Positions 2,276-30,929 of a DNA stretch of 64,000 nt are shown in pieces (positions within the stretch are counted from its first letter, which is position 1; each line of letters opens with the position of its first letter). The notes under the pieces are model-generated. The model was not told where the DNA came from. It saw nothing but the letters and a program-made list of their open reading frames with translations, and ran no database searches. The DNA is from Actinomyces sp. HMSC035G02 (GTDB lineage: Bacteria; Actinomycetota; Actinomycetes; Actinomycetales; Actinomycetaceae): the NCBI GenBank assembly GCA_001838165.1, contig KV835854.1, positions 75,675 through 139,674 on the forward strand, read 5' to 3'. A program made the translations under genes and the position numbers.

Positions 2276-3384
2276 TTACTCAACCCATCCGATCACCTGG
2301 AATGCGCCCCATTGTTCTGCGGTCGGATCGGGCGTACGGTCGTTGGTACCATCGGCGTTGATGATGTGCATGGATCTGATGGGGAGCCAATCATTGCCGG
2401 TGGGATTCTTGAGGTACAGATCGAAGACGACTTGAGACCCGTAAGGGCTAGGGAACGGCCTGTACTCTCTGACGGTTTCTTCGATTTGCAGCTCTGGCTT
2501 GAAGATGACCTTCTCTCCGATGCGGTCTTCCTCGCGGCGAGGCTTGTTTTCGAGCGCGGTCGCCTGGAAAGCGACGAGTCCCTTTTCCCGGTGGAGTTGG
2601 TAGCAGATGTTGTCAACGGAGATTGTCTCGTTGGCCTTCCAGCAGAAGAGGTTGCCGTCGTTCGTATGTGTGTCGACATACTTCTTGTTCGTCGACAACT
2701 CGGTTCCCTTCAACAGATTGAAGTAGAGGTTCTTTTCGTCCTCCTGCCCGACAGTGCTGACGAGCTCGGGAGTTGTTTCTCCCGGCTTGAGTCGGTAGAT
2801 CATCGAGGTGTTGCCGTCTCGCGTGGTGTAGACGCGCTGTAGGTAGAAGTATCCGTCGGCTGAGAATGTTCCGTAGCCGTCGTTGACATCCCTGTCGTCG
2901 TCCGTCAGTGGGATCATCGCGCTGACATCCGTGAAGGTGCCCGTGGTATCGATGAAGCCCGTGTTGTATGACAGTCGTTCGTTGACAGGGTTCATTTTGC
3001 GTCTGGTCGCGTACGTGAAGTCTGGGGAGTAGCAGCTGTTATAGAAGCAGTGGTACTGAAACGGCTGTTCCGCCAGGTGTTCGACTGCGGGGAACGTGCG
3101 TGTCGCTACCGACTTGTAGGTGACTGGGTCAATTGCGCGCACGCGGTGCTGTCCGTCCAGCTCTTCTTCGATGATGATGCCGTGCATGGGCTTTCCCTCT
3201 AGCTCGGCGAAATTGCTGTCCGGTGTGGGTGAATTGGAGGGTTCTGGTGCTGGAGCTGTGCTCGTCGCGGTGTCGGGGTGGAAGTTGGGGTCTCGCTCGG
3301 CTCGGGAGTGGAGGAGCCGCAGGCGCTGAGGGCGAGTGCGCAAGTTGCGGCAAGCGTGGTGATGGTCAGAGTCTTCGTAGACAT
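2276..3384 (-). pseudogene. Secreted lipoprotein of unknown function, interrupted by a one-base frameshift
   Basis: A start at 3384 has a good ribosome site (AAGAGG) and encodes a lipoprotein signal peptide, MSTKTLTITTLAATC..., with lipobox LSAC (Cys22), then a Ser/Thr/Pro linker. That frame soon runs out of sense. The mature domain (from about NSPTPDSNFAELEGK to the end, GWVE) continues in another frame that lacks any signal peptide. Adding one base in either of two four-G tracts (3275-3278, 3287-3290, plus strand) joins both parts in the linker. The mature part, about 330 residues with several Cys, Tyr and Asp residues, matches no family I recognise. It could be a real pseudogene, a phase-variable gene or a sequence error. 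Confidence 0.6.
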
Positions 3385-3584
3385 GGGACACCTCTTCACT
3401 GGGATCGTCGGGAGGCGAACGTTGCGGAATAGATGTGAGGTGGCGCATCGCGCAAGCCAAATCAAGTGATGTGTAACACATTAGATTTCATAGTGTTTTC
3501 ACAGTATCGCCATAACGTCCGCAAAAGTGTCGTCCCTAATCTGCGAAGCAATGATGCACACATCAGCAGAAAGGAGCGTCCCCC

Positions 3585-4280
3585 ATGGCGGACGACAACA
3601 AGAACCTGTCAGGTGACACCGAGCGCACCTCGATCCTGCCCCAGTCGGAGGCGCAGGCCGCGGAGCAGACCGAGGTCCTGCCCACGCACGTGGCGCAGGC
3701 GGAAACGGCGCAGATGCCTCCCGTTACTCAGCAGGAAACCAGCAATGCGTTTGCTGGCACGCCCCTGGAGTCTGTCGCGGGGGCTTCTGCCGACAATCAG
3801 GCGGGTGACGAGGCCGTGGCGGCTAGCGACGCGACAGCCGAGCCTGCACCGAAGAAGACCTCGTGGGGTAAGCGCGCGGCCATCGCCGGTGCCGCAGCTG
3901 CGGTGCTGTCCGTCGGCTTTGGCGCGGGCATGATCACGCATGCAGCCGTCATGGGCGATGGTCAGGACTTCTATGAGCAGGGCTACGAGGACGGTGTCAG
4001 CGACCAGGGCTACGGCGACGAGGACGAGGATTTCGGCCCCGGCAATGGTCAGCAAGGTCCGGGTAACGGCCAGCAGCAGGGCCCCGGTGGCCAGCAGGGG
4101 CCTGGCGGCCAGCAAGGTCCGGGCAACGGCCAGCAGCAGGGGCCTGGCGGTGAGCAGGGCGATACCGGCAGCACCCGCCCGGGACCTCCCCCGGAGGGAG
4201 GTCGAGGCCCCGGCAGCAAGTCTGGAAGCCAGGGTAGTGCGGACACCTCCACCGAGAGCGAAGGAACGACCGCCAGCTGA
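3585..4280 (+). CDS. Single-pass membrane protein with extracellular Gly/Pro/Gln repeat tail
   Basis: 231 residues. The N-terminal half is acidic and Glu/Ala/Thr-rich, probably cytoplasmic. A membrane segment follows (about 98-120, KRAAIAGAAAAVLSVGFGAG), then a short Tyr/Asp/Glu-rich stretch (QGYEDGVSDQGYGDEDED) and a low-complexity tail of GPGNGQQ/GPGGQQ units, ending in Ser/Thr. A strong Shine-Dalgarno (AAAGGAG) precedes the ATG. No enzymatic domain is visible, and I do not recognise a named family. It is divergent from the broken lipoprotein gene and is closed by its own terminator. Confidence 0.75.
   Translation: MADDNKNLSGDTERTSILPQSEAQAAEQTEVLPTHVAQAETAQMPPVTQQETSNAFAGTPLESVAGASADNQAGDEAVAASDATAEPAPKKTSWGKRAAIAGAAAAVLSVGFGAGMITHAAVMGDGQDFYEQGYEDGVSDQGYGDEDEDFGPGNGQQGPGNGQQQGPGGQQGPGGQQGPGNGQQQGPGGEQGDTGSTRPGPPPEGGRGPGSKSGSQGSADTSTESEGTTAS
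4035..4160 (+). repeat. In-gene tandem repeat encoding GPGNGQQ / GPGGQQ units
   Basis: About six imperfect 18-24 bp units encode alternations of GPG, N/G-G and Q2-3. Neighbouring units share long identical stretches, so unit number could vary between strains by slippage. Confidence 0.7.
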
Positions 4281-15030: not shown

Positions 15031-17844
15031 TCAGCTGTCTGTCGCCGTCATCTCCTGGTAGCGCTTGAAGAGGAGCGCGAGGCGTTCCTCGTTGGTCTCC
15101 AGGGCCTTCTTTGCTCCGAATGCGCGGTCGGCCGCTCGATCGAGGACGCGGTGGGCCTTGAGCAGGCTCGGTGCCATCGCCAGCGGGTTGTACATGTCGG
15201 CCAGGCTCACCCCAGGCTGCTCGGCGCGAGCCTCCAGGACCCCCTGGCCGGCCGCGATGATTTCGGCGCGCTGCTTGTCCGATACCGCGGGTAGCGGCAG
15301 GGTGTTCCAGACGATCTTGTTCGAGAAGTTGAGATCCGACTTCATGTGTCCGCCGACAGCGCGCTGCCACGTAATGAACATCGAGGAGCTAATAATTGCG
15401 AAGAGGAAGCCATCGGGGTCAATTGCTGTATAAAGCTTGTTGCCGGCAATAACCTTTTTGTCGAGATATGCCACGGTGTAGAACTCACGTGTCTCAGCAA
15501 CAACACTTGGTATAGCAAGATAACGTTCAGAGGGCTGGCGAATCTCTTGAAAAAGATATGGAGTGTTTGCGCTTTCACGAGTTGCCTTCTTGTCCGACGC
15601 ATTTCTCTTTTTTTGGCAGGCTTGCACTCGCGCATATAGTAGTGAACTCATCTTGATGTCGCGAGGATCGAAATCGCTCTCCGCCATCCACAGACACCAA
15701 CGATCGAGTCCTTGAATCATGTCTCGGCCCATGCGGAAGGGGCGCAGATACTTCGCCGCGATCGGGTCGGCCGCGACTTGCGGATAGTCCTTCGCTTCAA
15801 CGATGAGGTTACCGCCGTCAGTAGGCTGCGATCCACGTAGTACGGGTGTGACGGAAGATGAAATTGGATGCGTTTGTGGTTCGAGGAAGATATCAGGTCC
15901 CTCGACCAGGTAGGGGTTTATGTGCTTGACCGGCAGCGCCTCGGGCTGTGCCTTGAGGCTCGAATACGTGAAGAGCACGGGACGCGCCTTCTCGTGTGGC
16001 GCTCCCCGGTCGAAGCCCGTGATCACGCAGTGGACGGCGGCGGCCCCCGGCGCCTCGGACGTCCACGCGAAGGTCTGGTGCGCGAAACGAATCCTCCAGC
16101 CCCCTTCGAGCAGGGGCCGGAAGAGGGAAGCGACGGGTGCGCCCTGCGCGATCGAGTTGGTCGAGACGAAGGCGAAGCGACCGCCCCGTGGAACTGACTG
16201 GAAGTACTGGGAGGCCTTGATGAACCAGCCGGTCACGTAGTCCAGGTATCCGTTGTAAGCCTGTCCCCACACCAAGCGGAGATCTGCTCTCTGATTTGTA
16301 GATCGTTTTGACTGCCCAATAAAGGGAGGATTTCCCACGATCCTTACAGACGGAGTAGGCGGACATAGCTTCGTCCAATCTTCACGCAGTGCATTCCCGA
16401 TCGTGATGTGGGCGGACGTGCTGAGGGGAAGGATCGAGGGGGCCTGGCCGAGGAGGCGCTCCATCTCGCGATTCGCCTGGTGGTGAGCGAGGTGCAGGGC
16501 GGTTTGCGCGATGCGGGCCGGCCACTCTTCGATCTCGATGCCGAAAAAGTGGTCGAGCTGAACAGCGATGTCGGTGTTTTCTCCGCGGTCTTCGAAGAAC
16601 ATCGTCGCCTGGAACTCGTCGTTATTCTTGCGGGCGAGCTCCAGCTCCCGGATACGTACCAGGATCTCGGTGTCTAGGTGGCGCAGCTCTCGGTAGGCGA
16701 CGACCAGGAAGTTGCCGCATCCGCAGGCGGGATCCATGATCCGTAGCTCGCCGAGCTCTTTCCGTAGGTTCTTGAGGTTGCTGAGATCGTGCGTGTGTTC
16801 TGCGAAACGTTCACGCAGGTCGTCGAGGAAGAGCGGGCCAAGGGTCTTCAGGATGTTCGTCTCGCTCGTGTAGTGCTCGCCGAGCTCGCGTCGGGCCTTG
16901 GGGGACTTGACGGCCTGGAAGAGCGATCCGAAGACGGCGGGGCTGATGCCCGACCAGTCGAAGGCGCACGCTCGCATGAGTTCCTCTCTCATTTCGAGAG
17001 AGAAGCTGGGGATGCTGAGGGGCTCCGCGAAGATTCCGCCGTTCACGTAGGGGAAACGCGCAATCAGCTCGTCCAAGGTCGACTGACGGCGCTCTACGGG
17101 GGTGTTCAGGGTCTGGTAGAGGAGCGCGAGCTGTGCGCCGAGGTCGCTGCCGTCCTCACGGGTCCTGGAGTCGAGAAAATCGGCGAACAGGTCGCGTTCC
17201 CACAGGCCCGCGTCGTCACCGTAGAGGCAAAAGAGGGTGCGGATGAGGAAGATGGAGGCCTCGTGATCGCTGTAGCCCGACCCGTCCAGGGCCTCGTAGA
17301 GGTCGGCCATGACGCGGGCGGCCCGAATCGAGGCCTCCTCCTGCTCGCGTGAACCGACCTGGACCATGCCGTAGCCGGCGAGGAACTTCAGGTCGTCGAC
17401 GTGATCAGGGAGCTTGGCGAGTTCAAACTCCGTGTGCCCTGAATCTATGCCGTCATCAGTCGTCATGTTGTGGTCGAGATCGACGATCCGGATGCGGCGG
17501 AAGTCGCTGATGATGAGGAGGCGTGGAGTCTCGACGTCTGCGAGGTCGTGGATGTAATCGAGAGCCTGTTCCTCGGCCTTGTTGAGGTCCTTCCCCGCGG
17601 ACTTCATCTCGATGAGTGCTTTGCCGGGGATGAGAGCGTCGATGTATCCCTGGCGCCCCGTCGATGCACGGTTTGAGCGCCTCTCGTAGGAAATCGCTTT
17701 GCGCTTGGTGATGCCGAAACACTTCATGAGTTCGCGCATGAACTCGTGTCCGTCCTGCTTCTCATCCCCTACACAATCGCTCCAGTCGTATGCGAACTTC
17801 ACGCACCTTTCGCGGATGGCGTTAATCGAGAGCGTTGCGGGCAC
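15031..17844 (-). CDS. MmeI-like type IIG/IIL restriction-modification enzyme
   Basis: 937-residue single-chain enzyme. An N-terminal PD-(D/E)XK nuclease has Asp69, Glu79 and Lys81 (IDALIPGKALIEMKSAG). A helical linker follows, then an N6-adenine methyltransferase with SAM motif I DPACGCGNFL and catalytic NPPF, then a target-recognition domain and a C-terminal helical part. The same polypeptide would cut and methylate DNA, so no separate methylase or specificity subunit is needed. The 3' third of the gene (about 15350-15660, recognition-domain region) is clearly richer in A/T than the rest. A TATACT -10 candidate lies upstream. Confidence 0.88.
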   Translation of the reverse strand: MPATLSINAIRERCVKFAYDWSDCVGDEKQDGHEFMRELMKCFGITKRKAISYERRSNRASTGRQGYIDALIPGKALIEMKSAGKDLNKAEEQALDYIHDLADVETPRLLIISDFRRIRIVDLDHNMTTDDGIDSGHTEFELAKLPDHVDDLKFLAGYGMVQVGSREQEEASIRAARVMADLYEALDGSGYSDHEASIFLIRTLFCLYGDDAGLWERDLFADFLDSRTREDGSDLGAQLALLYQTLNTPVERRQSTLDELIARFPYVNGGIFAEPLSIPSFSLEMREELMRACAFDWSGISPAVFGSLFQAVKSPKARRELGEHYTSETNILKTLGPLFLDDLRERFAEHTHDLSNLKNLRKELGELRIMDPACGCGNFLVVAYRELRHLDTEILVRIRELELARKNNDEFQATMFFEDRGENTDIAVQLDHFFGIEIEEWPARIAQTALHLAHHQANREMERLLGQAPSILPLSTSAHITIGNALREDWTKLCPPTPSVRIVGNPPFIGQSKRSTNQRADLRLVWGQAYNGYLDYVTGWFIKASQYFQSVPRGGRFAFVSTNSIAQGAPVASLFRPLLEGGWRIRFAHQTFAWTSEAPGAAAVHCVITGFDRGAPHEKARPVLFTYSSLKAQPEALPVKHINPYLVEGPDIFLEPQTHPISSSVTPVLRGSQPTDGGNLIVEAKDYPQVAADPIAAKYLRPFRMGRDMIQGLDRWCLWMAESDFDPRDIKMSSLLYARVQACQKKRNASDKKATRESANTPYLFQEIRQPSERYLAIPSVVAETREFYTVAYLDKKVIAGNKLYTAIDPDGFLFAIISSSMFITWQRAVGGHMKSDLNFSNKIVWNTLPLPAVSDKQRAEIIAAGQGVLEARAEQPGVSLADMYNPLAMAPSLLKAHRVLDRAADRAFGAKKALETNEERLALLFKRYQEMTATDS

Positions 17845-20161: not shown

Positions 20162-20572
20162 TCAGCCCTTCGGCAGCGTGGCCGGCGGGACGTGCATCAT
20201 GATCTCGATGGAGTCCATGAACTGGCACATCGACTTGTTGAACTTCTCGTAGTCGGTGGTCTGGAATTCCTCGTTCACCCGGCCGATCGCGACGTTGATA
20301 AACGGCCTCTGGTTGAAGAAGGTCAGCATGATCGGCGCCTTGAGGATGGGCGACATACCTCGGATCATGACGCTGGAAGCCTCGGGAATGGCCAGCAGAT
20401 CCTCGGGAGCGGAGAAGTGGAGAGGCTCGCCGTCGACCTGCACCTCCGCGTCCTCGATGTAGGGGTAGACCCCGCGCACGCCCTGGATCAGTTTCTCCCA
20501 CGGCACGCGATACGTGAGGTTGAAGCTGGATCGGATCCAGCCCGGTTCTTCGGTGAGACCTGCCAGCAGCAT
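20162..20572 (-). CDS. Hypothetical protein, first gene of the unknown four-gene operon
   Basis: 136 residues, no signal peptide, one compact alpha/beta domain (RSSFNLTYRVPWEKLIQGV ... TTDYEKFNKSMCQFMDSIE). It is paralogous to the N-terminal domain of the next gene, 38 bp downstream, so a tandem duplication is likely. No named family recognised. It is the operon's leading gene; the spacer upstream (20573-20750) has no other gene and is followed by the 19-bp dyad array. Confidence 0.72.
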   Translation of the reverse strand: MLLAGLTEEPGWIRSSFNLTYRVPWEKLIQGVRGVYPYIEDAEVQVDGEPLHFSAPEDLLAIPEASSVMIRGMSPILKAPIMLTFFNQRPFINVAIGRVNEEFQTTDYEKFNKSMCQFMDSIEIMMHVPPATLPKG

Positions 20573-20750: not shown

Positions 20751-20866
20751 GGATAGGTTATGAGCATCTGGATAGGTTATGAGCATCTGGATAGGTTAAT
20801 AACCTATCCGGAAGTGCGTAACCTATCCGGAAGTGCGCAACCTATCCGGAAGTGCGCAACGTATCC
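20751..20866. repeat. 19-bp dyad repeat array A
   Basis: Contiguous 19-bp units: GGATAGGTTATGAGCATCT twice (20751-20769, 20770-20788). A 21-bp perfect palindrome follows (20789-20809; arms GGATAGGTTA and TAACCTATCC around one A). Three mirrored units come next (GGAAGTGCGTAACCTATCC at 20810-20828, GGAAGTGCGCAACCTATCC at 20829-20847, GGAAGTGCGCAACGTATCC at 20848-20866). The GGATAGG/CCTATCC motifs lie symmetrically about position 20799. The array sits in the only gene-free stretch over 300 bp here (20573-20894). Function unknown: operator array, RNA hairpin or replication element are all possible. Confidence 0.9.
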
Positions 20867-20894: not shown

Positions 20895-21269
20895 TCACCT
20901 ATTTGCCGACCCTCTGCGGGCGGCGTCGATCGCTGCCTTCGCCGTCTTCAGGCCGACGCCGGTGCGGTCCCGGTAGGCCTTGACGGCGTAGAGAGTCCTG
21001 CCCTCGGCGATCATCTGGAGTTCGGCTGCGCTCAGCTCTGGGAACGAGGCCGTGGCCGGGTTGGCTGCACCGGCTGGAAAGGCGGGACCTGAAGTCTGCG
21101 GGACCGCTGCCTCGGGAGAGGGGAAGGATGATCCGGCGAGTGCCGTGACCCCCGCGTCCGCGTAGGCCGCGCGCAGGCGCGCCTCCAGGGTTGCGACCTG
21201 CTCCTTGAGCCGAGAGTTTTCGGCGCGCAGCTCTTCGATTTCGCTGGCCTGACCAAACCACTTACCCAC
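20895..21269 (-). CDS. Small coiled-coil protein with ribosomal bL12 C-terminal-like domain
   Basis: 124 residues starting at a GTG with a strong ribosome site (AGGAGG, 6 nt spacing). Residues about 8-33 form a Leu-heptad coiled coil (IEELRAENSRLKEQVATLEA). A Pro/Ala/Ser linker leads to a C-terminal segment (LYAVKAYRDRTGVGLKTAKA) that matches the helix-turn of the bL12 C-terminal domain, the part that recruits translation factors. It is not the ribosomal stalk protein itself, which is longer and has a different N-terminus. Role unknown. Longer upstream starts lack ribosome sites. Confidence 0.75.
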   Translation of the reverse strand: MGKWFGQASEIEELRAENSRLKEQVATLEARLRAAYADAGVTALAGSSFPSPEAAVPQTSGPAFPAGAANPATASFPELSAAELQMIAEGRTLYAVKAYRDRTGVGLKTAKAAIDAARRGSANR

Positions 21270-26196: not shown

Positions 26197-29100
26197 GTGT
26201 ACCTCAAGAACCTGACGCTGCGGGGCTTTAAGTCCTTCGCCAGTGCGACCACGCTCGCCCTCCAACCGGGCATCACGTGCGTCGTCGGCCCCAACGGGTC
26301 GGGTAAATCCAACGTCGTCGACGCTCTCGCCTGGGTCATGGGCGAGCAGGGTGCCCGCGCGCTGCGCGGCGGGCAAATGGCGGACGTGATTTTCGCGGGG
26401 ACATCTGGGCGCGCGGCGTTGGGGCGCGCCCAGGTGGACCTGACGATTGACAACACCGACGGGCTGCTCGACATCGAGTATTCCGAGGTGACGATCAGCC
26501 GGACCCTGTTCCGCGGGGGCGGCTCCGAATACTCCATTAACGGCACTCCGGCGAGGCTGCTGGACGTGCAGGAGCTCCTGTCCGACACGGGCATGGGCCG
26601 TCAGATGCACGTCATCGTCGGCCAGGGGCAGCTCGACGCGATTCTCTCCTCTACGCCCGAGGAGCGTCGCGGGTTCATCGAAGAGGCCGCGGGCGTCCTG
26701 AAGCATCGCCGGCGCAAGGAGCGCGCGCTCAAGAAGCTGGCCGACATGGACGCGAACCTCGTGCGCGTCCTGGACCTGACCAACGAGATTCACCGCCAGC
26801 TGGGGCCCCTGGCTCGCCAGGCGCGGGTTGCTCGTCGCGCGTCCCTCATTCAGGCGCGCGTGCGCGACGCGAAGGCCCGCCTGCTCGCCGATGATCTGGC
26901 GTCTGCGCTGTCGAAGCTGTCCGTGCTCGAGGCGTCGGACGAGTCGGCCGCCGCACGCCGGGCTTCGCTTGAGGAGCAGATTGCGGCTGCGCGCGCTGAG
27001 TTGTCACGGCTGGAGGAAGCCGAACGGGCATCCTCACCGGCACTCGATCAGGCATCCTCCGACTGGCAGTCGCTCACCACGATTACCGAGCGCCTGCGCG
27101 GCACGCTGATGGCGGCGACCCAGAAGGTGTCACTGCGCGCGACCCCCGAGCTGCCCCCGGGCGGCGAGGATCCCGACGTCCTCGACGAGCGCGCCCGCGT
27201 CGCCGGCGCCGAGGACGCTGCGCTGGTCACTCAAGTCGAAGAGGCGCGCTCTGCCCTGACGTCTGCGACTCGCGCGCGCGAGGCCGCCGAGGATGCGGAC
27301 GATTCCGCGTCCCGCGAGCTGGCCCGCGTCAACCGCGTCATTGCCGACCACCGTGAGAAGGTCGCGCGACTGACCGGAGACGCGTCCACCGCCGCGTCTC
27401 GCCTGGAGGCAGCGATCGCCGAGGCCGACCGAGCCTGGGGCGCATACCGCGCGGCTCAGGAGCGCGCCGAGGCAGCCGAGAAGGCCGTGCCTGCGTCGTC
27501 GGTGGGCACCGTTGGTGTGGGCGCTTCTGTCGCTGGGGAGTCCTCGTCCGAGGAAGAAGCCGGCGGGGGAGCGGCCCGCGCACACGCCGAGGCCTCCGCC
27601 CGCCGCGACGCCGCGCGCGCCCGCGTGGACGAGCTGCTCGGCGTTGAACGCGAGGCCCGCGCCGACCGCGCGCGCTGGGAGGCCCGCCGCGACGCGCTCG
27701 AGCAGCTGCTCGCTCCCGAGGATGGTACCGCCGAGCTGCTCGGACGCCCCGGTGTGCTCGGCCAGGTTGCGCCGCTCCTGCACGTCACACCTGGTTTCGA
27801 AGACGCCGTCGCCGCCGTGCTGGCCCCCTTCGCCGACGCGGTCGTCGTCGACTCCCTGGCCCGAGGCCTGGGTGAGCTGGACGCCGCCCGCGCGGCCGGA
27901 CGCTCGCTGCGGTTGGTCGTGGCATCGGGTTCTTCAGATGTTTCCGGTTCTTCCGATTTCCCCGCGGATGGGACCGGCAGTGCTGTCTGCGCCGATCTAC
28001 CCGAGGGTGCGACGTGGCTTGCCGACGTCGTCGCCTGCGAGGGGGCCGCCGCGCCCCTCGCGTCCCTGCTGGACGGGGTCGTCGCCTGCTCTCTCGAGAC
28101 CGCCGCTGACGTGCTGGACGTGCCCGGCGTGCGCGCCGTCGTCACGTCGGGTGGCGACGTCCTGCGCTCCTGGTCGGTGGAGGGTGGCCGCCAGGCATCC
28201 TCCGTGCTCTCCGTACGCGCAGACTACGAGGAGGCGTGCGCGCAGGCCGAGGCCGCCCAGGCCCGCATGGCCGAGGTGTCCGAGCAGCTCGGCGAGGCGA
28301 ACGCCCACCTGGACCGCTGCATTCGCGAGGCGAACGATGCCCTGAAGGCCCTGCGCGAGGAAGACGCCCAGCGCGCCAAGGAAGCCCAGGAGCTGGCCCG
28401 CGCACAGTCGGCCGCGCAGGCCGCCCGCGCCGAGGCCGATCGCGCCCACGACGTGGCCCGCCGCGCCGACGAGCAGGTCACCTGGGCCCGCGAGCAGGAT
28501 CTTGCCGCCCGCGCACGCCTCGACGGCGCCGACACCGTCGGCCCGCCCGAATCCCTCGAAGACGCTCAAGCCCGCGCCGACGCCGCATCCCGCGCCGCCC
28601 GCGAGGCCCGCGAGGCCGAAAACGAAGCGCGCCTGAGCCTGCGTGCCTTGGAAGAACAATCGCGGCGCGCCGCCTCCCGCGCCCGCTCCCTGCGCCAGGG
28701 GGCCGCCGCCGAGCGCGAGGAGCGCGCCCGCTACGCCCGGCGCGAGGCCGCGCGAAAGACGGAGCTGGCCACGGCCTCGGACGTGGAGGCAGCCGCCCGC
28801 GTCGCCCTCGAGGCCGCCGAGCGAGCCCTGTCCCAGGCTGCCGCCGAACGTGATCGCCTGAGCGAGCGGCGCTCCCAGGTCTCCCAGGAGGTCTCGGACG
28901 CCCGCCGCGCCCTAGACCGGCTGAGCGCGGAGCTGTCGGAAGCCACGGCCTCGGCCCACCAGGGGCAGATCGCGGCCGAGCAGACGCGCCTGCGCGTCGA
29001 GGATCTCCAGCGGCGCGCCCTCGAGGAGCTGTCCCTCGAACCCGAGCAGCTGCTCGCCGAGTTCGGGCCGCAGATGCTGGTGCCGATGCTGCCGCTCGAC

Positions 29101-29793
29101 CCCGACCAGGTCGAGAAGGCCGCGGCCGCCGAGCCGAGCGCGTACGTGCGCACCGAGCAGGAACGCGCGCTCGCCAAGGCGCTGAAGGACCTGGAGAAGC
29201 TGGGGCGCGTCAACCCGCTGGCGCTCGAGGAACACGAGGCGCTGGCCTCGCGGCACAAGTTCCTCGTGGATCAGGTCCAAGACCTCAAGGCGTCGAAGGC
29301 GGACCTGCTGCGCATCGTGCAGGACGTGGATCGCCTGGTGGAGGAGGCCTTCGCGTCGGCGTTCGCCGAGACGCGCGAGCAGTTCGAGCACGTATTCGGC
29401 GTGCTCTTCCCGGGCGGCCAGGGCGACCTGGTGCTCACCGACCCGGACGACATGCTCTCGACGGGCATCGAGATCGAGGCTCGGCCCGCGGGCAAGAAAG
29501 TCAAGCGCCTGTCCCTGCTGTCGGGCGGCGAGCGTTCCCTGGCCGCGATCGCGTTCCTGGTCGCGATCTTCAAGGCGCGCCCGTCCCCGTTCTACGTCAT
29601 GGACGAGGTCGAGGCCGCCCTGGACGACATGAACCTGACGCGCCTGCTCGCCATCTTCAAGGAGCTGCAGGAAACCTCGCAGCTGATCGTCATCACCCAC
29701 CAGAAGCGCACGATGGAGATCGCGGATGCCCTCTACGGCGTGACGATGCGCGACGGCGTCACGACGGTGGTGTCCCAGCGCCTCGCGGACTAG
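26197..29793 (+). CDS. smc: Chromosome segregation ATPase SMC
   Basis: Chromosome-organising ATPase that loads with ScpAB. Walker A is at 31-38 (GPNGSGKS). Two long Ala/Glu/Arg-rich coiled coils flank a hinge near residues 510-660. The C-terminal head has the ABC signature LSGGERSLAA (about 1107) and Walker B PFYVMDEVEAALDD. 1198 residues is the normal length. The GTG start lies 20 bp after ndk; TAACCT (26185-26190) six bases before it suggests a leaderless message, as well as read-through from ndk. Confidence 0.95.
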   Translation: MYLKNLTLRGFKSFASATTLALQPGITCVVGPNGSGKSNVVDALAWVMGEQGARALRGGQMADVIFAGTSGRAALGRAQVDLTIDNTDGLLDIEYSEVTISRTLFRGGGSEYSINGTPARLLDVQELLSDTGMGRQMHVIVGQGQLDAILSSTPEERRGFIEEAAGVLKHRRRKERALKKLADMDANLVRVLDLTNEIHRQLGPLARQARVARRASLIQARVRDAKARLLADDLASALSKLSVLEASDESAAARRASLEEQIAAARAELSRLEEAERASSPALDQASSDWQSLTTITERLRGTLMAATQKVSLRATPELPPGGEDPDVLDERARVAGAEDAALVTQVEEARSALTSATRAREAAEDADDSASRELARVNRVIADHREKVARLTGDASTAASRLEAAIAEADRAWGAYRAAQERAEAAEKAVPASSVGTVGVGASVAGESSSEEEAGGGAARAHAEASARRDAARARVDELLGVEREARADRARWEARRDALEQLLAPEDGTAELLGRPGVLGQVAPLLHVTPGFEDAVAAVLAPFADAVVVDSLARGLGELDAARAAGRSLRLVVASGSSDVSGSSDFPADGTGSAVCADLPEGATWLADVVACEGAAAPLASLLDGVVACSLETAADVLDVPGVRAVVTSGGDVLRSWSVEGGRQASSVLSVRADYEEACAQAEAAQARMAEVSEQLGEANAHLDRCIREANDALKALREEDAQRAKEAQELARAQSAAQAARAEADRAHDVARRADEQVTWAREQDLAARARLDGADTVGPPESLEDAQARADAASRAAREAREAENEARLSLRALEEQSRRAASRARSLRQGAAAEREERARYARREAARKTELATASDVEAAARVALEAAERALSQAAAERDRLSERRSQVSQEVSDARRALDRLSAELSEATASAHQGQIAAEQTRLRVEDLQRRALEELSLEPEQLLAEFGPQMLVPMLPLDPDQVEKAAAAEPSAYVRTEQERALAKALKDLEKLGRVNPLALEEHEALASRHKFLVDQVQDLKASKADLLRIVQDVDRLVEEAFASAFAETREQFEHVFGVLFPGGQGDLVLTDPDDMLSTGIEIEARPAGKKVKRLSLLSGGERSLAAIAFLVAIFKARPSPFYVMDEVEAALDDMNLTRLLAIFKELQETSQLIVITHQKRTMEIADALYGVTMRDGVTTVVSQRLAD

Positions 29794-30050: not shown

Positions 30051-30209
30051 ATGCCGGTCGGCACGCGCCTGCCTGAATCTTTAGTCCGCGAGCTTAGCGA
30101 GGCGACAGGGGAACTCGGACAAACTCGAAGTGAGCTCGTTCGTCGCGGAGTGAGAGTGCTGCCGGGATTGCTGATTGTTGATCTGGATAGGATGCGGCCT
30201 TCTGGATAG
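30051..30209 (+). CDS. Ribbon-helix-helix (CopG/RHH-like) DNA-binding protein, running into repeat array B
   Basis: 52 residues. The segment GTRLPESLVRELSEATGELG followed by RSELVRRGVRVL has the RHH pattern: a short beta strand (TRLP), helix 1 and an RSELVRRG helix 2. It follows the preceding 51-residue frame without a gap and in the same frame. The last codons and the TAG stop lie inside the first two GGATAGG units of the 19-bp array, so the native 3' end may have been lost. No toxin gene is adjacent. If real, it is an orphan regulator. Confidence 0.55.
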   Translation: MPVGTRLPESLVRELSEATGELGQTRSELVRRGVRVLPGLLIVDLDRMRPSG

Positions 30210-30319
30210 GTTATGAGTATCTGGATAGGTTAATAAGCTATCCAGATCTGCGTTTCCTATCCAGATCTGCGTTTTCTATCCAGAACTGTGTTTCCTATCC
30301 AGAACTGTGTTTCCTATCC
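30185..30319. repeat. 19-bp dyad repeat array B
   Basis: Same geometry as the array at 20751. Two forward 19-bp units (GGATAGGATGCGGCCTTCT, GGATAGGTTATGAGTATCT; 30185-30222) precede a 21-bp near-palindrome (30223-30243, one mismatch). Four mirrored units follow (AGATCTGCGTTTCCTATCC, AGATCTGCGTTTTCTATCC, then AGAACTGTGTTTCCTATCC twice; 30244-30319). Heptamers fall at the same distances from the centre (30233) as in array A. The second half of the mirrored units differs from array A, so the fixed part is GGATAGG plus spacing. Confidence 0.9.
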
Positions 30320-30401
30320 AAAAGAATGGGGGATTCGATGGAGTGCAGGCTCACTCATGCGCATGTTGACCCGCCTGGTGGAGCAACGGCAGTTCGAGTA
30401 T

Positions 30402-30438
30402 GAAAACGCGGGCGGGGACCCGTTGGTCCCCGCCCGCG
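30402..30438 (-). terminator. Rho-independent terminator for the DUF7455 gene
   Basis: 14-bp perfect stem CGCGGGCGGGGACC / GGTCCCCGCCCGCG with a CGTT loop. Read on the minus strand, the stem is followed by GTTTTC. It begins about 40 bp after the DUF7455 stop. The rest of 30320-30478 holds nothing else I can recognise. Confidence 0.8.
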
Positions 30439-30478: not shown

Positions 30479-30694
30479 TCAGTCGTTCATGAAATGACGC
30501 TCGTCCAGGATCTGTGCGCCGCCACCCACCAGCGAAGGCAGGTGCTCGTTTGCGTGGTGGCCGCAGAAATACAGCTGGCCACCCGAAGGCATCGTCGCAC
30601 GAACCCAGGCGCGAGCGCCGCAGGCGTCGCAACGATTCGCCGCATTCAGCTGCGGCTCGTCCAGTACGGGGCGTTCAAGAGTCTGTGCGTTCAT
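30479..30694 (-). CDS. DUF7455 family protein (small Cys/His protein)
   Basis: 71 residues with CDACGARAWVRA and FCGHHANEH, giving a likely C2H2/C2C-type zinc site, and a conserved C-terminal DERHFMND. This short family is widespread in Actinomycetota and usually lies beside topoisomerase or sigma factor genes, as here next to parE. The function is not established. The ATG at 30694 marks the start of the conserved part; a longer frame upstream is antisense to the spacer and has no ribosome site. Confidence 0.8.
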   Translation of the reverse strand: MNAQTLERPVLDEPQLNAANRCDACGARAWVRATMPSGGQLYFCGHHANEHLPSLVGGGAQILDERHFMND

Positions 30695-30929
30695 GCTTCC
30701 ATCACACACCATCGTCCCGCCCCGCGCACCCCTGTTCACCCGGGGCGCAATCGACCGCCCGCACGTCGATACAGTGGAACGGGGGAGCGCACACCCTCCC
30801 GACGCAACCGCCAACACGCCCCGAAAGCGCGCCCACCAGCGCGATCTGGCCCCGGCCTCGTCAATCGTGGAAAGCGTCCCAGAACCCGCGCCACGCGCAC
30901 CGTTGGCCACAAACGAGCGCCCAGCCACA

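Follow-up and report, generated by a model that had tools for sequence, protein, structure and literature searches.

What kind of element are the two regularly phased arrays of short mirrored units in the DNA of Actinomyces sp. HMSC035G02, and is there a protein to which they belong? The arrays, here named A and B, lie in a stretch of 64,000 nucleotides of contig KV835854.1 (here referred to as the window). From comparisons with related genomes we conclude that A and B probably belong to a scattered repeat population that has its own partner gene at another place in the chromosome. This gene would code for a nuclease with an AbiEi-like and a Vsr-like part. The arrangement resembles that of REPIN-RAYT, the repetitive extragenic palindromic (REP) sequences and their REP-associated tyrosine transposases (RAYT), but the enzyme is unrelated.

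Array A is composed of two outer forward 19-bp units (20751..20788; twice the unit GGATAGGTTATGAGCATCT), a centre (20789..20809) that is the perfect 21-bp palindrome GGATAGGTTAATAACCTATCC and holds the innermost forward and reverse cores, and three further mirrored 19-bp units (20810..20866). The heptamer GGATAGG starts at 20751, 20770 and 20789, the palindrome is centred at 20799, and the mirrored cores end at 20809, 20828, 20847 and 20866. A preliminary description had placed the cores 48, 29 and 10 bp to the left and 10, 29, 48 and 67 bp to the right of the centre. These offsets are correct, but the outermost right core reads CGTATCC and not CCTATCC.

In array B two outer forward 19-bp units (30185..30222) are followed by the imperfect palindrome GGATAGGTTAATAAGCTATCC (30223..30243) and four further mirrored 19-bp units (30244..30319). 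Here GGATAGG starts at 30185, 30204 and 30223, and the mirrored cores end at 30243, 30262, 30281, 30300 and 30319. The position of array B had been given correctly; its layout has to be amended to an imperfect centre and five right cores, of which two carry a single mismatch.

All 12 exact GGATAGG/CCTATCC heptamers of the window are located inside the two arrays. The mean number in shuffled sequences was 3.69, and 12 was reached in one of 100 shuffles. Arrays with at least five phased units were present twice in the window and in none of 40 dinucleotide-preserving shuffles. Arrays A and B are real and not a product of chance.

Among the matches listed, the centre pattern was found in 10 of 35 genomes of the genus (Schaalia odontolytica group), with 4 to 40 centres each: 10 in G001, 12 in G029, 26 in G011, 19 in G033, 4 in G036, 20 in G038, 40 in G012, 17 in G013, 11 in G040 and 19 in G042. 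The matches listed contained no GGATAGG centre for the remaining 25 genomes and no paired-heptamer pattern for ten genomes of ten other families. The ten centre-bearing genomes are those with a Dak2 at least 84% identical to that of the window, the next genome having 72%. In titled records the exact 21-bp centre occurred in 25 stretches, of which 18 were labelled Schaalia or Actinomyces and six Sanguibacter or Xylanimonas; the remaining one, from a low-GC record, is an isolated hairpin. The six (L021, L022, L027, L034, L037 and L041) carry the labels Sanguibacter keddieii 250_SKED and Xylanimonas cellulosilytica 352_XCEL and are probably mislabelled Schaalia or Actinomyces genomes.

The fetched loci yielded 76 unique arrays with the consensus unit GGATAGG followed by TTA(T/C)G-N2-(C/G)AT(C/G)(C/T), and 42 of them had an architecture of three plus three units. 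All 76 share the 19-bp phase and the spacing relative to the dyad centre, in agreement with the earlier view that heptamer and phase are what is conserved. A CRISPR (clustered regularly interspaced short palindromic repeats) array had been excluded before, and rightly so: the units stand in both orientations around a dyad and the spacers of the 76 arrays follow a common consensus. Likewise, the arrays are neither an insertion sequence (IS) nor a simple tandem repeat.

Of the 105 arrays counted, which include some from overlapping loci, none reached more than 40 bp into a predicted gene. Among gaps of 100-1000 bp, arrays filled 24 of the 32 between convergent genes, against 14 of 117 between co-directional genes and 1 of 48 between divergent genes; the loci were partly picked for holding arrays, so that the orientations can be compared and the rates cannot. 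Gene context was taken from our own codon-use script, which misses genes. Judged by sequence comparison, arrays A and B belong to an intergenic repeat family that is dispersed over the genome and sits at the 3' ends of genes.

A candidate partner was found at loci with two arrays 1-1.5 kb apart. Its gene lies outside the window and codes for a protein of about 360 aa, an AbiEi-like/Vsr-like nuclease (DUF559, homing-endonuclease-fold). In the modelled protein residues 54-213 are predicted to adopt an AbiEi-like fold and the C-terminal domain models as a Vsr/EDxHD-type nuclease similar to I-Bth0305I. An AbiEi_4 domain was recognised in a relative, and a profile search gave no solved relative. 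The catalytic motif is intact, its residues being invariant in 30 of 30 proteins.

A close ortholog (at least 62%) was present in nine of the ten array-bearing genomes, one per genome, and in all nine arrays were found on both sides of the gene. Genome G038 carried arrays and lacked a close ortholog. Absence of similar arrays from related genomes, or recent copies of a mobile repeat with no conserved context, had been named as findings that would refute the earlier reading; such arrays are present and the conserved context is the nuclease gene. In G001 and G011, the two genomes whose locus was examined, this gene is located between an alpha/beta hydrolase gene and an extracytoplasmic function (ECF) sigma-factor gene. 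Because both loci have these neighbours, the gene of this GGATAGG clade (clade 1) looks vertically inherited. No intron or intein was seen at the gene.

To see how far such enclosure extends, the 1-kb left and the 1-kb right flank of each nuclease gene were compared (blastn, E<=1e-5). The genus sample comprised 69 loci covering 70 of 130 nuclease matches, and 20 of 65 matches were fetched from other genera, in both cases mostly the higher-scoring ones. The two flanks shared a repeat in 9 of 9 clade-1 genes, in 35 of the 60 remaining genus genes (44 of 69 in total) and in 12 of 20 genes from other genera. None of 92 control genes did so; these were random predicted genes, unmatched for accessory status, and were drawn only from genomes of the genus (20 random regions of 20 kb), so that the 12 of 20 are without a control of their own. 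Fisher's test gave p values of 1.6e-18 (35/60) and 2.9e-11 (12/20), both too small since related genes are not independent. The flank repeats of the genus had a median length of 91 bp and were 90% identical.

In other families of the order a repeat pair was present at 9 of 19 loci (17 distinct genes) compared with 2 of 66 controls (p 3e-6); at these loci the open reading frame (ORF) was picked mechanically, and two of the nine matches are weak (L227, 20 bp; L222, 78% and inverted). The repeats at L216, L218, L221, L224, L229 and L233 are mostly long palindromes, and the two copies at L216 differ by paired changes in both arms.

Outside clade 1 the repeats are of other kinds. In the genus flanks of the remaining genes lags of 19 and 20 bp dominated (17 and 10 flanks, respectively, scoring at least 27), and the lags of control flanks peaked at 18 and 24, as expected from coding periodicity. 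Genome G007, which represents another species and is without GGATAGG centres, carries a nuclease ortholog (46% identical) enclosed by two arrays of the clade-1 architecture. These consist of 20-bp units with the core TGGGGCAGG and the centre GGGGCAGGTTA-N-TAACCTGCCCC. Centres of this type were found 15 times in G007, twice in G030, once in G036 and in none of 32 others. In G030, too, the ortholog lies between two such arrays. Genome G036 has a close nuclease of the GGATAGG clade but contains a single TGGGGCAGG-type dyad array (L100, G036:C1:1471462). A separate 19-bp phased dyad repeat of the GTCGACAACGCGCGTCC type, to which no nuclease has been assigned, is located in a control region of G007 (L168:10170-10290).

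Nucleases and repeats were found to diverge together. Among the 44 genes with a repeat pair, gene pairs in different genomes had the repeat in common in 34 of 35 cases at a protein identity of at least 70%, in 23 of 48 cases at 55-70% and in 0 of 832 cases below 55%. Paralogs within one genome had no repeat in common (0 of 31 pairs), and many of them obey the same rule of enclosure, each by a repeat of its own. Because sharing depends on protein identity and is absent from paralogs of the same genome, the repeat, as read from these alignments, follows the nuclease and not the host.

Six of seven further flank repeats that were searched for are dispersed in their own genomes. Two flank repeats of G109 occupied at least 35 and at least 13 places, the copies at the gene included, and the clade 2 repeat in G013 was found at two flanking and five other places. 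The seventh repeat (G062) gave seven listed matches, all within ~2.5 kb of its gene. For none of the seven was a match listed in G006, which has one weak nuclease match, or in G043, which has no nuclease match. Locus L122 (G018) contains two tandem AbiEi-Vsr genes and an identical 696-bp stretch that is repeated. From about 1305 of L219 (G019, another family) a 20-bp tandem repeat, CCTGTTCTGAGGCCCCCGGC, stands beside a DUF559-type match.

These results bear on the explanation by coincidence, in which the arrays are a neutral mobile repeat accumulating wherever a gap tolerates it and the nuclease gene lies in one such gap by chance. The varying presence of arrays between species would agree with such hitch-hiking, as would the few other accessory genes that are also enclosed by arrays. 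It is nevertheless extremely improbable in view of the two-sided enclosure in nine of nine genomes, the enclosure by other repeats in other clades with none among 92 controls, and the dependence of repeat sharing on nuclease identity.

For the preferred reading, a repeat population with its own nuclease, we infer that the enzyme binds the phased units in a sequence-specific manner and cuts and mobilises the arrays. As a dimer or oligomer, the AbiEi-like protein would recognise 19-bp units of either orientation on the two sides of the dyad, and the nuclease domain would nick or cut at the array or beside it. Repair of the break would copy, expand, trim or delete arrays and might sometimes duplicate an array together with its flank. 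Arrays beside the nuclease gene may also regulate it. Two precedents make it plausible that a protein reads repeated sites cooperatively. AbiEi and Rv2827c each bind inverted repeats of 23 bp in the promoter of their own gene, AbiEi bending the DNA (PMC7319586), and the target on which I-Bth0305I dimerises is nearly 60 bp long (PMC3943268).

The preliminary description had proposed an operator array for an oligomerising protein. A phased protein-binding array is still the best reading, with the AbiEi-like/Vsr-like nuclease as the candidate protein; an operator is not the simplest form of it because of the 4-40 centres per genome and the single divergent gap among 48. In its extended form this explanation takes the AbiEi-like protein mainly as a DNA-binding regulator, with operators at its own gene, dispersed arrays as regulatory or titration sites, and a nuclease fold of secondary importance. 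The promoter binding by AbiEi and Rv2827c, the AbiEi-like fold of residues 54-213 and the phased dyad sites, which suit cooperative binding, are in line with it. We regard it as rather unlikely, since arrays flank both sides of the gene and not the promoter alone, dispersed arrays occupy convergent gaps (24/32) and hardly divergent, promoter-type ones (1/48), and the catalytic residues are invariant.

The presence of arrays at orthologous places is variable. Among the matches listed, G011 has array A at the corresponding position, as do G042 and G038 (with one 19-bp unit fewer). In G001, G029 and G013 it is missing with about 277 bp, the segment 20635..20911 being replaced by ~20 bp, and it is also missing in G040. 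A target-site duplication was not seen at the one place compared (the 277-bp segment against about 20 bp without array A). Array B was found in G013 and G038, partially in G042, and not between conserved flanks in six other genomes. The segment that holds it (30146..30402) is absent between conserved flanks in G001 and G029. At this place G001 carries an FtsX/ABC-transporter gene pair instead (L256:2834-4619), and an ORF pair of similar size is found there in G040, G036 and G033.

Within the 76 arrays neighbouring spacers of the same arm were more alike than shuffled ones (7.77 vs 6.03 +- 0.14), and spacers facing each other across the dyad were alike at 5.94 of 12 positions compared with 6.16 +- 0.16 in shuffled arrays. 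Because spacers are alike within an arm and no more than shuffled across the dyad, the arms seem, from these patterns, to grow by tandem duplication without compensatory pairing. The hairpin suggested earlier is not supported as the main idea, if taken as a hairpin under selection; both strands do fold well, yet these facing spacers give it no support. Another explanation is that of structured 3' elements, transcribed hairpins for termination or mRNA stability which the host keeps and which need no nuclease. They would account for the stable folds predicted for either strand of A and B (z -7.7 to -10.2), the 3'-end placement and the long palindromes around nuclease genes of other families. With the left-right compensatory signal absent, the presence variable at orthologous places and the tie to the nuclease left unexplained, we consider them very unlikely.

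A few loci carry cargo between two arrays. In G001 this is a HEPN/MNT-type toxin-antitoxin pair (L046:3596-5275), likewise in G011 (L047), and in G038 a NADAR-DarT1 antitoxin gene (L132:2663-4469). At L046 the array is directly repeated together with the 3' end of the neighbour gene (2688-3776, + strand), the copies being 91-92% alike; at L132 ~400 bp of array and flank are directly repeated and ~80% alike. The arrays could be landing pads which a freestanding homing-type nuclease opens, cargo and array being built in by homologous repair to give array-cargo-array. The I-Bth0305I-like domain and the direct repeats around both cargoes fit this. However, the cargo loci seen are few, ordinary homologous recombination between repeats could suffice, and L255 in G011 may simply be a tandem duplication that extends into a gene for a tRNA synthetase. 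We consider landing pads unlikely.

Among known systems, the repeat population with its nuclease resembles REPIN-RAYT, in which dispersed intergenic palindromic repeats, mostly at 3' ends, stand with each kind beside its own single-copy enzyme gene (PMC3116915 and PMC3733652). The enzyme here, however, models as an AbiEi-like and Vsr/EDxHD nuclease and not as an HUH/Y1 transposase (Y1 genes were not searched for in these genomes). Clade-1 repeats are phased 19-bp arrays around a dyad, not hairpins of 20-40 bp, and their units have the core GGATAGG and a TTA(T/C)G-type spacer in place of a GTAG or CGTC foot. Since the enzyme fold is unrelated and clade-1 repeats are without the REP form, the system resembles REPIN-RAYT but is not a member of it.

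With the AbiE type IV toxin-antitoxin system it has in common the predicted AbiEi-like fold, the AbiEi_4 domain of a relative and repeated sites at the gene. It differs in the fusion of the AbiEi-like part to a nuclease domain and in sites dispersed genome-wide, and Pfam recognised no AbiEii nucleotidyltransferase (NTase) toxin gene among ten neighbour ORFs at two loci (L048 and L050). The C-terminal fold and the conserved acidic and Lys residues are those of Vsr and I-Bth0305I, but here the gene is flanked by its own repeat family and is free of a visible intron or intein. Like miniature inverted-repeat transposable elements (MITEs) and other IS-derived repeats, the arrays are non-coding, dispersed and dyad-symmetric with a partner encoded in trans; unlike these, the partner found is no transposase and one array differs by exactly one 19-bp unit.

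We know of no partner protein for most short dispersed repeats outside REPIN-RAYT. For the CGTC REPs the lack of a known partner protein is expressly stated (PMC3733652). In searches of the open-licence literature of PubMed Central (subscription papers and preprints being outside this scope), no report of this association between nuclease and repeat was found. The array-nuclease pair suggests, on genomic evidence, a new enzyme-and-repeat partnership in oral Schaalia. More broadly, we consider it rather probable that actinobacterial AbiEi-Vsr nucleases (DUF559/MTES_1575-type), a class nameless in the databases searched, have private, co-diversifying palindromic or phased-dyad repeats. Enzyme-plus-repeat systems would then have evolved a second time, independently of REPIN-RAYT, and here each homing-endonuclease-type nuclease would maintain its own repeat population, several per genome without exchange. 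The enclosure rule assigns to repeats of these Actinomycetota a partner that can be tested, and it gives access to an unnamed protein family. It also yields a natural panel of nucleases and sites whose specificity has shifted (for instance TGGATAGG with a 19-bp and TGGGGCAGG with a 20-bp unit), with which changes in DNA recognition by the Vsr/EDxHD-type fold could be followed.

The surroundings of both arrays in the window are ordinary chromosome with Dak1/Dak2, phosphotransferase system (PTS) proteins, a nucleoside diphosphate kinase, an SMC-family protein and a gyrase-B-type gene. Array A sits between two ORFs predicted by codon use, downstream of the one to its right (20895..21269, - strand), which matched no Pfam family at 0.001, and upstream of the one to its left (20162..20572, - strand; function unknown). 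Array B is located between convergent genes, the SMC-family gene on its left (26197..29793, + strand; Pfam SMC_N and SMC_hinge) and an ORF with a DUF7455 domain on its right (30479..30928, - strand). The window additionally contains an MmeI-type restriction-methyltransferase gene (15031-17844, - strand).
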